DNA of 10,682 bases from Planctomycetota bacterium. Its GTDB lineage: Bacteria; Planctomycetota; Phycisphaerae; UBA1845. Positions 2,571 to 8,974 of this stretch are shown piece by piece. The stretch's first letter is position 1. Every line of letters begins with the position of its first letter. A program made the translations under genes and the position numbers. The stretch covers positions 1-10,682 of the forward strand of contig JADFOB010000016.1 of assembly GCA_022563055.1 (NCBI GenBank). The letters run 5' to 3'. A model generated the notes under the pieces. It did no database searches, was not told the origin of the DNA, and was given only the letters and a program-made list of their open reading frames with translations.

Positions 2571-2690
2571 TATGACTGCGCGCAGACGTGCGACGTGCAT
2601 TCGGAGCCCCAAGCGTAAGCGCGGGGTCGTTGACCGGTCGCTTGCGCTCCCGGCTCGGATCAGCGCTGCGGCATTACGTACCGTCATTTA
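2571..2690. mobile_element. Palindromic MITE-like element, copy A (116 bp between TA dinucleotides)
   Basis: The element has a core hairpin (left arm from 2604 with GAGCCCCAAGCGTAAGCG, right arm ending GGCTCGGATC near 2661) inside longer imperfect inverted ends (ATGAC at 2572, GTCAT at 2683-2687). Its right end read outward, TAAATGACGGTACGTAATG, resembles the end of copy B (TAAACCACCGTGCGCAATG). A 27-nt segment (2601-2627) is identical, inverted, to 5338-5364 in copy C. It encodes no protein, so any movement would be in trans. It lies directly before the ribosome-binding site of the beta-helix gene and could alter that gene's leader. Confidence 0.65.
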
Positions 2691-2705
2691 GGTTAGGAAA
2701 GAGGC

Positions 2706-4497: not shown

Positions 4498-4520
4498 CCA
4501 ACAGAACCCATCGTTTGGCC

Positions 4521-4580
4521 GGCGTCGACGCCATAACTCGGCAAGTGAATTGGCCGCTTCGTTGTCGAGTTCGCTTCATG
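4521..4580 (+). repeat. 60-bp direct repeat, left copy (IS 3'-end remnant)
   Basis: The 60 bp at 4521-4580 match 6551-6610 without gaps, 52 of 60 identical by hand count. The right copy encodes the last residues of the transposase (GVDAIGRQVNRPLRC) and its stop. The left copy reads GVDAITRQVNWPLRC in the same phase but continues past the position of the stop. Similarity stops abruptly on its 5' side, so it looks like the truncated end of an older related IS. Confidence 0.75.
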
Positions 4581-4843
4581 GTAACTCTTCAGCCGTCTGC
4601 AATGTCGGCGTCGGGTAGACGTGGTCATGGTCGGTGACCAGGTTGGTTTGGAGGGCATTGCGAATAACCTCGGTGGCCCCAAGCCTGCGGTAAGCGATTA
4701 GTGAAGAAACGTAAGCCCCGTCAGAGGCGAAAGTCCTCTAGCCCTAAGCCAAGCGTAGTTTGAGCGATTCTTTGCAGAAAAAGACTCGAAATGCGTTCGG
4801 TAAAGCGTTAGAATGCTGTGCCAAAGAAACGACACTCTTACGC

Positions 4844-4850
4844 AAGGAGG
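4844..4850 (+). promoter_or_regulatory. Ribosome-binding site that sets the transposase start
   Basis: AAGGAGG lies 8 nt before an in-frame GTG at 4859. The open frame extends 33 codons further upstream to a TTG at 4760, but no Shine-Dalgarno sequence is seen there. The GTG is therefore preferred as the start. Confidence 0.75.
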
Positions 4851-4858
4851 CATTTCGA

Positions 4859-6598
4859 GTGAACAACAGCATACGCAAACAACTCGCCCGTGGCAAGCGG
4901 AAAAACCAGTACCGTCTCCGAGACATCGAAGGGGAGGATCAGCCCCACCCGATGTTCTCGGCAAGCAACATCAAGTATGAGCTGGCGGACAAGACCCGCG
5001 GGCTGGTCTGCGGAGGAATCGGGGCGATACACACCCTCGCACGGCAACGCGGGCTCCTGGACGCCATCGACAAGCGGTTGCACCTGCTCAAGATTCACAA
5101 GCCCTACCACGAATCCGATCACGTGCTCAACATCGCCTACAATCTCCTCTGCGGCGACCAATGCCTGGAACATATCGAACTGCGCCGCAACGACGAAGTC
5201 TTTGCCGACGGGTCCGTGACGGAATCGGCGGCCCGCCGGTCGGGATATCGAAACGGGCGACAACATGGATGCGCCACGCAATCAGAGCCCCGAGCGTCAG
5301 CGAGCGGGTTCTCTGGCGCGACGCCGGCACCGGTGAAACCCCGCGCTTACGCTTGGGGCTCCGATGAGTGCCGCCGGAAGTGTTACGCACCCCTTGCCGA
5401 CGCCCTCGGGGCGCAGCGAATTCCCGATCCCACCACAGCCGGCGACTTCTGTCGGCGTTTCAAGGCGCACCATGTAGAGACTCTCATGGAGACCATCAAC
5501 GAGGTTCGCGTCGGGGTCTGGCGCAAGCAGCCGGAGGCGTTTTTCGATCTGGCCGTCATCGACGGCGACGGCACGCTGGCCGAGACGACCGGACAGTGCA
5601 AAGAGGGTATGGACATCTCCTACAAGGGGCCGTGGGGATACCATCCATGGATCATCTCGTTGAACAACACGGGCGAGCCGCTCTACCTGGTCAACCGAAG
5701 CGGGAACAGGCCGTCGCACGAAGGCGCGACTCCGCGTTTCAACAGTGCGATCGATCTTTGCCTTGGCGCGGGCTTCAAGCGTGTCCTCCTTCGCGGCGAT
5801 ACGGACTTTACGCAAACCAAAGCCCTCGATGACTGGCACGGGCGGGGCGTGCAATTCATCTTCGGCATGGATGCGACGAAGAATCTCGTCGAGATGGCCG
5901 AAAGTCTGGAAAACAAGGCGTTCAAGCCGCTCAAGCGAAAGCCGAAGTACACTGTCAAAACCCAACCTCGCCAGCGGCCTCGTAATGTCAAGGAAGCCAT
6001 CGTGAAGGAGCGTGAGTTTGAGAACATCCGACTTCAATCGGAAGACGTGGCCGAGTTCGACTACGCACCGGGGCATTGCCGTCGAAGCTATCGCATCGTG
6101 GTGGTTCGCAAAAACCTCACGGTCGAGCGTGGCGAGTGGGCGTTGTTCGATGACGTACGTTACTTCTTCTACATCACGAACATTCGCAGCCGGACGCCCG
6201 CCAGTATTGTGAAGTGGGCCAATGGTCGCTGCAATCAGGAAAAACTGATCGGCCGGCTCAAGGGCGGCATTGGGGCGTTGGACATGCCGGTGGACAACTG
6301 GGTGAGCAACTGGGCCTACATGGTGATGGCCTCACTGGCGTGGACGCTGAAAAGTTGGTTCGCGCTGTCGTTGCCGGAGTGCGGACGGTGGCGGAAGAAG
6401 TACAAGTCGGAGAAGGAGAAGGTGCTGCGTATGGAATTCCAGACGTTTCGCAACGCGTTCATGAACATTGCGACCCAGGTGATTCGGACGGGGCGTCGTA
6501 TTGTTTATCGCGTGCTGGCATGGAGTCCGTGGTTGGAGGTGTTCTTACGCGGCGTTGACGCCATAGGTCGGCAAGTGAATCGCCCGCTACGGTGTTGA
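4859..6598 (+). CDS. IS1380-family transposase with a 64-residue in-frame insertion
   Basis: From GTG the product has 579 residues. IS1380-type features are IPDPTTAGDFCRRF (188-201), the first catalytic Asp in VIDGDGTLAETTG (D235 or D237), the second in LRGDTDF (D314) and the Glu in NGRCNQEKLIGRLKGG (E461). This gives a complete DDE set for an RNase H-like transposase. Residues 118-181 do not belong to the family: they are encoded by a palindromic element bounded by a 9-bp direct repeat. Removing 192 nt restores DEVFADALGAQRIPDPTTAG, the expected continuous motif, and leaves about 515 residues, a usual length. The frame is open throughout, so a full protein can be made. Whether it folds and transposes with the insert, which lies before the catalytic core, is unknown. 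Confidence 0.9.
   Translation: MNNSIRKQLARGKRKNQYRLRDIEGEDQPHPMFSASNIKYELADKTRGLVCGGIGAIHTLARQRGLLDAIDKRLHLLKIHKPYHESDHVLNIAYNLLCGDQCLEHIELRRNDEVFADGSVTESAARRSGYRNGRQHGCATQSEPRASASGFSGATPAPVKPRAYAWGSDECRRKCYAPLADALGAQRIPDPTTAGDFCRRFKAHHVETLMETINEVRVGVWRKQPEAFFDLAVIDGDGTLAETTGQCKEGMDISYKGPWGYHPWIISLNNTGEPLYLVNRSGNRPSHEGATPRFNSAIDLCLGAGFKRVLLRGDTDFTQTKALDDWHGRGVQFIFGMDATKNLVEMAESLENKAFKPLKRKPKYTVKTQPRQRPRNVKEAIVKEREFENIRLQSEDVAEFDYAPGHCRRSYRIVVVRKNLTVERGEWALFDDVRYFFYITNIRSRTPASIVKWANGRCNQEKLIGRLKGGIGALDMPVDNWVSNWAYMVMASLAWTLKSWFALSLPECGRWRKKYKSEKEKVLRMEFQTFRNAFMNIATQVIRTGRRIVYRVLAWSPWLEVFLRGVDAIGRQVNRPLRC
5202..5402. mobile_element. Palindromic MITE-like element, copy C, inside the transposase gene
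   Basis: The element (5211-5393, 183 bp) is flanked by TTGCCGACG at 5202-5210 and 5394-5402, the pattern of a 9-bp target duplication. Its ends are imperfect inverted repeats (GGGTCCGTGAC from 5209 and, inverted, GGGTGCGTAAC ending near 5392), with CGGCGGC conserved further in on both sides. The core hairpin pairs 5285-5310 with 5337-5361 (GAGCCCCGAGCGTCAGCG against CGCTTACGCTTGGGGCTC). Its right arm is identical over 27 nt, inverted, to copy A. Net gain is 192 nt, a multiple of three, with no stop in the host frame. Confidence 0.8.
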
Positions 6599-6610
6599 GT
6601 TCGCTTCATG
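6551..6610 (+). repeat. 60-bp direct repeat, right copy (transposase 3' end)
   Basis: This copy covers the last 15 codons of the transposase, its stop codon and 12 bp beyond. It matches 4521-4580 in direct orientation, with two fully conserved blocks, GCAAGTGAAT and GAGTTCGCTTCATG. Recombination between the two copies would delete the transposase. Confidence 0.75.
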
Positions 6611-6714
6611 ATGCCGGGGTAGGGAAGTCCCGGTCCGCGTAGGCCCCCAACAAGTACGAGGTGTGAGCCTGACAAGAGAACCACCGAGTGCCACAATGCC
6701 GGCCCCGATGGCGG

Positions 6715-6748
6715 GCGGGCTGGTCCGCGCTCGAACCGGCCGGCCCGC
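6715..6748 (-). terminator. GC-rich hairpin between convergent transposase and dehydratase genes
   Basis: GCGGGC (6715-6720) pairs with GCCCGC (6743-6748), and GGT (6722-6724) with ACC (6735-6737). It lies in the 239-bp gap where the transposase and the minus-strand dehydratase converge, so it could stop transcription from either side, but there is no T tract. Just left of it, 6679-6709 (AACCACCGAGTGCCACAATG and onward) resembles the end of MITE copy B, so the hairpin may be part of a decayed repeat. Confidence 0.3.
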
Positions 6749-6837
6749 GCCGCGGCGAAGAAACCAATCGTTGTTCGCTTGTTTTGGGACTAGTAGGCAC
6801 CGTTTCAGAGGGATCGCCGTGAACGGGCATCAGTGAG

Positions 6838-8210: not shown

Positions 8211-8615
8211 ATGAACGATATCACGTTGCAGCAGGCGCAGGCGGCGGTGGCGGCTGCCGTACGGAAGTCGCAAACGATCGACGCCAAGATGGACATTGCC
8301 GTCGTGGATTCGGGCGCGAATCTCAGGGCTTTTGCCCGCATGGACGGCGCCTGGCTCGGATCCATCGACATCGCCGTCAAGAAGGCTCGAACGGCTCGCT
8401 TCTTCGATATGAACACGGGCGAGATCGGGAAGCTCTCGCAGCCCGGTGGTCCACTCTACAACATCGAGCACTCCAACGGGGGATTGATCACGTTTCCCGG
8501 CGGCATACCGATCAAGAATGGTCAAGGCGAGATCATCGGCGCGATCGGCGTCTCGGGCAGCACGGTCGAGAACGACCATCTGGTCGCCCAAGCCGGTGTG
8601 AACGCGAACGTCTAA
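8211..8615 (+). CDS. HbpS/GlcG family (DUF336) small protein
   Basis: 134 residues, about the normal family length. Recognisable features are the N-terminal helix ([13 protein letters not shown]), the strand-turn [21 protein letters not shown], the helix KKARTARFF, then [12 protein letters not shown] and the C-terminal [20 protein letters not shown]. This family includes extracellular haem-binding HbpS and GlcG of glycolate loci; many members have no assigned role and small-molecule binding is usual. No signal peptide is visible, so this one is probably cytoplasmic. AAGGAG (8198-8203) lies 7 nt before the ATG. TTGACA at 8124-8129 may be a -35 box, but no good -10 follows. No glycolate oxidase gene is adjacent. 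The stop codon overlaps the outer end of MITE copy B. Confidence 0.88.
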
Positions 8616-8733
8616 ACCACCGTGCGCAATGCCGCGCCACCGATCCGAGCCCCAAGCGCGAGGGCGGGGTTGGTCACCGGTCGCTTGCGCTCGCGGCTCG
8701 GAAAAGCGGCGCCTCATCGCGCGCAGTGGTTTA
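8613..8733. mobile_element. Palindromic MITE-like element, copy B (117 bp between TA dinucleotides)
   Basis: The two 37-bp ends (8615-8651 and, inverted, 8695-8731) match at 28 of 37 positions without gaps. Most mismatches are transitions that would still pair as G-U in RNA. The core is GAGCCCCAAGCG (8647 on) against CGCTTGCGCTCGCGGCTC (8683-8700). TA at 8613-8614 and 8732-8733 bounds it, as expected for IS630/Tc1-mariner-type MITEs. The core (8647-8702) matches copy A (2604-2659) at about 49 of 56 positions. The left TA plus the next A form the TAA stop of the HbpS/GlcG-like gene. As a hairpin just after a stop codon it may also terminate that transcript. Confidence 0.72.
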
Positions 8734-8974
8734 GTACTCCGTCGCCTGTCAACGGATGGATTGTCTTGGTGTGCCACTGCTCTTGAGCCGTGCCGGACGG
8801 CACGGTGTTGGTCGTGCCAAGAGCACTGCTCAAGAGCCGTGCCACACATCCTGCCCCGTTGGATGATCCGTCAAGACATCGGCAACGGGGCACTAGCCGG
8901 CATCGACCCGCTGCGACGGCCCACGACTTGGACGCATACCTCCACGCCGTCCGATCTGCTACGATGCTTGCACC
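8616..8974. other. Intergenic region filled by two palindromic repeats
   Basis: Of these 359 bp, about 200 are repeat: MITE copy B to 8733 and a GTGCCACT element at 8769-8847. The remaining part, 8848-8974, should hold the methyltransferase promoter. TACGAT at 8960-8965 is a possible -10 box. It would put the transcript start only a few bases before the ATG, giving a leaderless or nearly leaderless mRNA, consistent with the absence of a ribosome-binding site. No matching -35 is evident, so this is a weak call. No gene is seen. Confidence 0.5.
8769..8847. repeat. GTGCCACT palindromic repeat, copy 2
   Basis: The outer arms, 8769-8788 and 8828-8847, are inverted with 18 of 20 matches (GCTCTTGAGC/GCTCAAGAGC inside). 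An inner hairpin is perfect: CCGTGCCG (8788-8795) and CGGCACGG (8798-8805) with a GA loop. GTGCCAAGAGCAC at 8815-8827 is a further GTGCC unit. Size and ends resemble the element at 4419-4497. Confidence 0.6.

Follow-up and report, generated by a model that had tools for sequence, protein, structure and literature searches.

The transposase gene of an IS1380-family insertion sequence in a planctomycete genome contains, in frame, a second mobile element that is very probably a non-autonomous MITE, mobilised in trans by a transposase of the ISKra4 family (p-MULT 4) and left readable by luck. The two lie in a 10,682-nucleotide stretch of contig JADFOB010000016.1 (assembly GCA_022563055.1, Planctomycetota bacterium), the whole of which was analysed and is called the window here. 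In the course of events that we propose, an ISKra4-family transposase would recognise the roughly 22-bp ends, GGGTSCGTGACAGAATCGGCGG, and insert the MITE, and repair would duplicate 8-9 bp of the target; one copy would have gone into the IS1380 transposase gene, within its N-terminal part, and the gene would have stayed open through the length of that copy (183 bp, i.e. 183 + 9 nt or 64 codons) and the lack of a stop in that frame. The resulting hybrid transposase would be translated, though it is probably impaired and drifting. The features concerned are the following.

4742..6789, plus strand: host insertion sequence, IS1380 family, apparently complete, with ends CCCTAAGCCAAGCG and CGCTTGTTTTGGGA and CTAG at 4738-4741 and 6790-6793
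4859..6598, plus strand: IS1380-family transposase gene, 579 aa including the 64-codon insert (PF13701, NF033539)
5210..5392, unstranded: MITE of 183 bp with ISKra4-type ends and flanking duplication; homologues L081, L087, L084, L090 and L082
5210..5231, plus strand: left terminal inverted repeat, GGGTCCGTGACGGAATCGGCGG
5371..5392, minus strand: right terminal inverted repeat (reverse complement GGGTGCGTAACACTTCCGGCGG), identical to the left at 15 of 22 positions
5201..5209, unstranded: left copy of the target duplication in the family register (5202-5210 in the register of the first-pass annotation)
5393..5401, unstranded: right copy of the target duplication in the family register (5394-5402 in the register of the first-pass annotation)
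5281..5366, unstranded: REP/REPIN-like palindromic core of the MITE, limits approximate, which occurs elsewhere without these ends
2601..2691, unstranded: related core without ISKra4-type ends, not the same element
8612..8734, unstranded: different palindromic element with a related core, roughly 123 bp, ends mostly CTAAA...TTTAG

Insertion sequences of the IS1380 family have inverted ends and a short target duplication of 4-5 bp, and the host element shows both: compared by eye, its ends (4742-4755 and 6776-6789) match at 10 of 14 positions, with CTAG on either side. At the DNA level, the homology with L001 and L011 begins at 4738, and that with L001, L003 and L011 ends at 6793-6796. The transposase scores 244.7 bits against NF033539, above the cut-off of 180 for the family, and its 11 closest relatives (from the best 120 of 7994 scored proteins) are 514-516 aa long and 75-78% identical to it. 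Just upstream of the host element, a 61-bp fragment at 4520-4580 is 87% identical to 6550-6610, the 3' end of the transposase gene, and is perhaps the remnant of an earlier copy of the insertion sequence.

The first-pass annotation had described a 9-bp direct repeat, TTGCCGACG, at 5202-5210 and 5394-5402, spaced 192 nt apart, in a reading frame that continues across both copies without a stop; repeat, spacing and open frame are all present as described. We reject the repeat as significant by itself, since the window holds 40 maximal 9-bp direct repeats no more than 250 bp apart, many of them within 141-bp tandem repeats. (These tandem repeats give rise to the cysteine-rich repeats of about 47 residues in a 693-aa protein with a PKD domain, encoded on the minus strand at 130-2211.) What makes the repeat convincing is its position at the ends of an element with terminal inverted repeats, together with the lack of the block in relatives. 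The annotation had further suggested a comparison with IS1380 relatives in search of uninterrupted copies, and such copies exist: the 64-codon block is empty in all 17 relatives of one alignment and in all 63 of a second, the latter taken from the best 120 of 7994 proteins scored. Among copies in named genomes the closest is L001 (Planctomycetota B5T3L8); its DNA aligns with the window up to 5210 and again from 5394, and its insertion site reads on without a break as GAAGTCTTTGCGGACGCC. Removal of the block does restore an IS1380 motif, as had been claimed. A protein search with residues 115-182 scored no match among 103 candidates; together with the absence of the block from the aligned relatives, this leads us to reject the 64 residues as native protein.

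Aligned on its family, the duplication reads TTTGCCGAC and CTTGCCGAC, identical at 8 of 9 positions; one base further on, in the register first proposed, it is identical at 9 of 9, and 192 nt are removed in either register. The imperfect inverted ends are real, and the insert has what defines a MITE, i.e. a short non-coding length, terminal inverted repeats and a target-site duplication. One mobile element sits inside another, as had been suggested, with its own inverted ends and target duplication and with the block missing from relatives.

Further copies and their duplications, which the first-pass annotation had proposed to look for in the same genome, were found in other genomes. With 5202-5402 as the query, the genomes of L001, L002 and L011 all gave matches, including four of 110-176 bp in genome G001. 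One of the long G001 copies, L081, is 80% identical to the window element over 168 bp and has a length of 184 bp; another, L087, measures 184 bp end to end, and their flanking 9-mers are GGCGATGTA and GGCGATGTT for the former and CGCCGCCCG twice for the latter. The window element is 77-80% identical to these long copies, and related copies are dispersed in G001, G003, G093 and other genomes, with terminal inverted repeats close to GGGTCCGTGACAGAATCGGCGG. When S was allowed at position 5 and no more than 2 mismatches were accepted, the end pattern GGGTSCGTGACAGAATCGGCGG gave 522 matches, spread over 48 of 200 relatives of G001, against 2 for the reversed pattern (totals summed across genomes). 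Several relatives have two ends that are more alike than the 15 of 22 seen in the window.

Among the matches listed, we collected 47 pairings of inverted ends 45-800 bp apart, from loci L081 onward and the window (L001-L080 were left out), skipping those with N nearby; three are second pairings at the same place (window, L207 and L225). The flanking 9-mers are identical at 8 or 9 positions in 27 of the 47, 11 of them perfectly, while in a control of mismatched pairings 8 positions were reached in 3 of 2162 and 9 in none. The flanking bases match at 6 or fewer of 9 positions in 17 pairings, one of which is the window's other register, and some poorly flanked pairings, e.g. L101, have near-perfect ends. 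Two loci, L114 (54 bp) and L120 (64 bp), are minimal elements with little beyond two ISKra4-type ends; the first is flanked by a perfect 9-bp duplication and the second by bases matching at 6 of 9 positions. A scan of viral contigs for the exact end returned no match, and Rfam found nothing in the window at gathering scores.

Passages of PMC3942029 describe ISKra4, or p-MULT 4, as a group of prokaryotic Mutator-like elements whose inverted repeats measure 18-39 bp and have a terminal cytosine that is conserved, whose duplications are 8 or 9 bp long, and which are reported from the Planctomycetes and other phyla. In G001, contig C212 carries the end GGGTCCGTGACAGTATCGGCGG, which matches the MITE end consensus at 21 of 22 positions, and an ISKra4-type transposase begins 86-110 bp after it; the contig stops before the opposite end of this insertion sequence, and only this cut copy reaches 21 of 22. 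A homologue at E 1e-10 is present in 11 of 200 relatives. Four full-length insertion sequences of 1524-1541 bp (L171-L174) have similar ends on both sides, matching the MITE end consensus at just 16-19 of 22 positions; L175 and L179, which are more distant, likewise carry ends of this kind. One of the four, L174, is a 1533-bp insertion sequence with ends GGGTGCATGAC... and a perfect 9-bp duplication, CGATCTTCG, on both sides; it alone has one, no flanking duplication being found at L171, L172, L173 or L175 despite ends on both sides. The best model for these transposases is NF033572 (ISKra4), with E 5.2e-59 for L172, but the hits all fall short of the NCBIfam cut-off, the highest reaching 200.4 of 205 bits for what is one ORF of a two-ORF gene. 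A Mutator-like MITE is thus the best reading of the insert; its likely partner would be an ISKra4-family insertion sequence of roughly 1.5 kb, which we infer, from the indirect evidence of the similar ends, to have mobilised it in trans.

The locus that matched the ISKra4 model best in a profile search, L139 in G002, showed no matching pair of ends. An origin of the MITE by internal deletion from any of nine ISKra4-type loci is not supported, as its interior has in common with them only a 12-bp chance match. The motif TTTTT(T)CCCC(C)TCAGG is present in all six loci shown (L170-L174 and L181) at the passage from the N-terminal zinc-ribbon ORF to the catalytic ORF, and the shift between the two ORFs there is +1 (or -2), in contrast to the -1 frameshift predicted for the two-ORF transposases of the ISMich2 group in the part of PMC3942029 that deals with it.

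How the gene stayed open can be approached from the composition of the insert and from its siblings. A dinucleotide model at this composition gives a chance of 0.33 for 61 stop-free codons; with a factor of 1/3 for the frame, the chance of in-frame openness is about 0.33 x 1/3, or about 0.11 (about 1 in 9). L081 and L087, the nearest siblings that extend from end to end, both measure 184 bp and have a stop in the frame that the window uses, and relative to both the window copy is without one base near element position 28. It might be, though we consider it unlikely, that a 184-bp element first broke the frame and that a later deletion of this base (at about 5236) restored it, by chance or by selection: with the base the insert would be 193 nt, and an identity of 77-80% to the long G001 copies leaves time for change in either; the family, however, varies in length, with distant members L144 and L166 at 182 bp, and the copy may as well have inserted as a 183-bp variant.

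Across the 27 elements with verified duplications, the window included, length plus 9 leaves a remainder of 0, 1 or 2 on division by three in 7, 6 and 14 cases, respectively. The frame of the empty site is open for at least 60 codons on each side and 250 in sum in 8 of the 27, and the window copy is the only one of these 8 that both keeps the frame and reads through. The threshold is our own choice, applied to the two best frames of each element, and the counts are rough, as long chance frames occur in GC-rich genomes. Three more elements, L204, L223 and L231, also keep the frame and read through in their best frame, with one side open for just 12-52 codons; L231, with 500 open codons upstream and 12 downstream, perhaps lies near the end of a gene.

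The host gene bears mild signs of change. Of 230 alignment columns with a conservation of 95% or more, the window protein departs from 5, against 0-2 for the 13 closest relatives, an excess that holds only against these 13, since 11 of the 63 relatives likewise depart at 5 or more conserved columns. When L011 is used to polarise the changes, 24 nonsynonymous and 25 synonymous ones fall on the window branch and 15 and 33, respectively, on the L001 branch (77 codons of the right part, where L011 has a frame break, are omitted); the neutral ratio is 3.4 to 1 (1191 to 354 sites), and both branches are well below it. With numbers this small, the gene would have undergone at most a recent or partial relaxation, and a possible reason for the below-neutral ratio on the window branch is that the hybrid transposase remained functional for a while.

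These figures also bear on whether the MITE family has been selected for readability, in the manner of the Rickettsia palindromic elements, with the insert tolerated and the transposase still working. The ratio on the window branch would fit such a history, as would the fact that all 579 codons of the ORF are open, the additional read-through at L204, L223 and L231, and the precedent of in-frame MITEs documented in Rickettsia and Coxiella in the parts of PMC10969869 and PMC5896051 that treat them. Siblings of a family so selected should have an open frame and a frame-keeping length, however, and the two closest have neither; moreover, the residues of the insert are without any protein relative, and the window copy stands alone among the 8 elements with an open empty-site frame. 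The stop in the siblings, the 7 of 27 frame-keeping lengths and the roughly 1-in-9 chance together favour a neutral reading over a selected one, so that selection on the family is quite improbable and the frame fit of the insert is best put down to luck. As for the 192-nt block being an assembly artefact, repeats do invite misassembly, but the block has the borders of the element family and is flanked by the target duplication that such an element should leave, neither of which is expected from an artefact, and we give this explanation hardly any weight.

The MITE folds strongly (z -4.9), and the first-pass annotation had linked its core hairpin to two other sites in the window. The palindromic core is indeed common to 2601-2638 and 8634-8681, but a search for ISKra4-type ends at these places found none, and we reject the sites at 2601 and 8612 as copies of the same MITE. 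The element at 8612-8734 has relatives in 12 of 120 genomes, and no direct repeat or duplication is evident at its flanks or those of L236-L239 in the copies read; it abuts the stop codon of an HbpS-like gene (8211-8615). Two further inverted repeats, at 2351-2437 and 8769-8847, with arms of 33 and 25 nt, are REP- or terminator-like.

In other genomes as well, the core occurs both with and without the ends. From the 61 loci up to L169, end-only matches and duplicates not counted, we chose 44; 3 of these are without the core motif, and of the 41 that have it, 6 show ISKra4-like ends on both sides, 13 on one side and 22 on neither within 130 bp, compared with 13.8% of random places for any such end and 0.7% for both. 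A Y1 transposase (PF01797) is present in all 8 core-bearing genomes tested. The interiors of 26 verified elements (the remaining one of the 27, at 54 bp, was too short) fall into 13 clusters unlinked by blastn, and folding with z below -2 was seen in 22 of the 26 but in just 1 of 51 stretches of flanking sequence. One type of end thus encloses many different palindromic interiors. We tentatively suggest, as a possibility that we rate somewhat below even, that the Planctomycetota have a modular system in which palindromic sequences of unrelated origin are packaged, time and again, by one Mutator-like end type, among them REPIN-like cores that also occur free or in other shells. Such packaging in bacteria would parallel the Pack-MULE capture of eukaryotes.

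The MITEs mobilised in trans by IS transposases, such as Chunjie (named in PMC10969869) and Nezha (named in PMC3733652), resemble the window element in being short and non-coding, with terminal inverted repeats, a target duplication and ends like those of an autonomous insertion sequence; the likely partner here differs in belonging to ISKra4 (Mutator-like), and the interior has no likeness to the nine ISKra4-type loci compared. The inverted repeats and duplications fall within the ranges given for ISKra4 / p-MULT 4 elements in PMC3942029, as far as the passages cited go, whereas the window element is a 183-bp passenger with no transposase. Like the Rickettsia palindromic elements (RPEs) and Coxiella QMITE2, it is a short element in frame inside a protein gene; RPEs, according to a passage of PMC10969869, are in frame at high frequency and encode a conserved peptide, whereas here a single in-frame case is clear, and its nearest siblings would interrupt the frame. 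With the REP and REPIN sequences treated in part of PMC3733652 the element has in common a core built from two inverted palindromes, which recurs in the genomes of many relatives; here, unlike there, the core lies between ISKra4-type ends, and Y1 transposases co-occur with it in the genomes tested. A literature search that covered few subscription journals found no MITE of the ISKra4 family by title and the start of the abstract (PMC9208149 included), and no in-frame MITE in a transposase. In-frame MITEs are already known from Rickettsia and Coxiella; what differs here is a partner family for which no MITE was found in print.

Together, these results provide a precisely delimited example of a mobile element that sits in frame within another, and retention of the frame is explained here without selection on the element. 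They also tie the numerous short elements of planctomycete genomes, a large population of which we found no description in the literature so covered, to a named transposase family. This tie to the ISKra4 family makes mobilisation testable, and a single kind of end is common to palindromic interiors that differ greatly; if the modular system that we tentatively suggest is real, REP-like repeats would travel as passengers of a DDE transposase.
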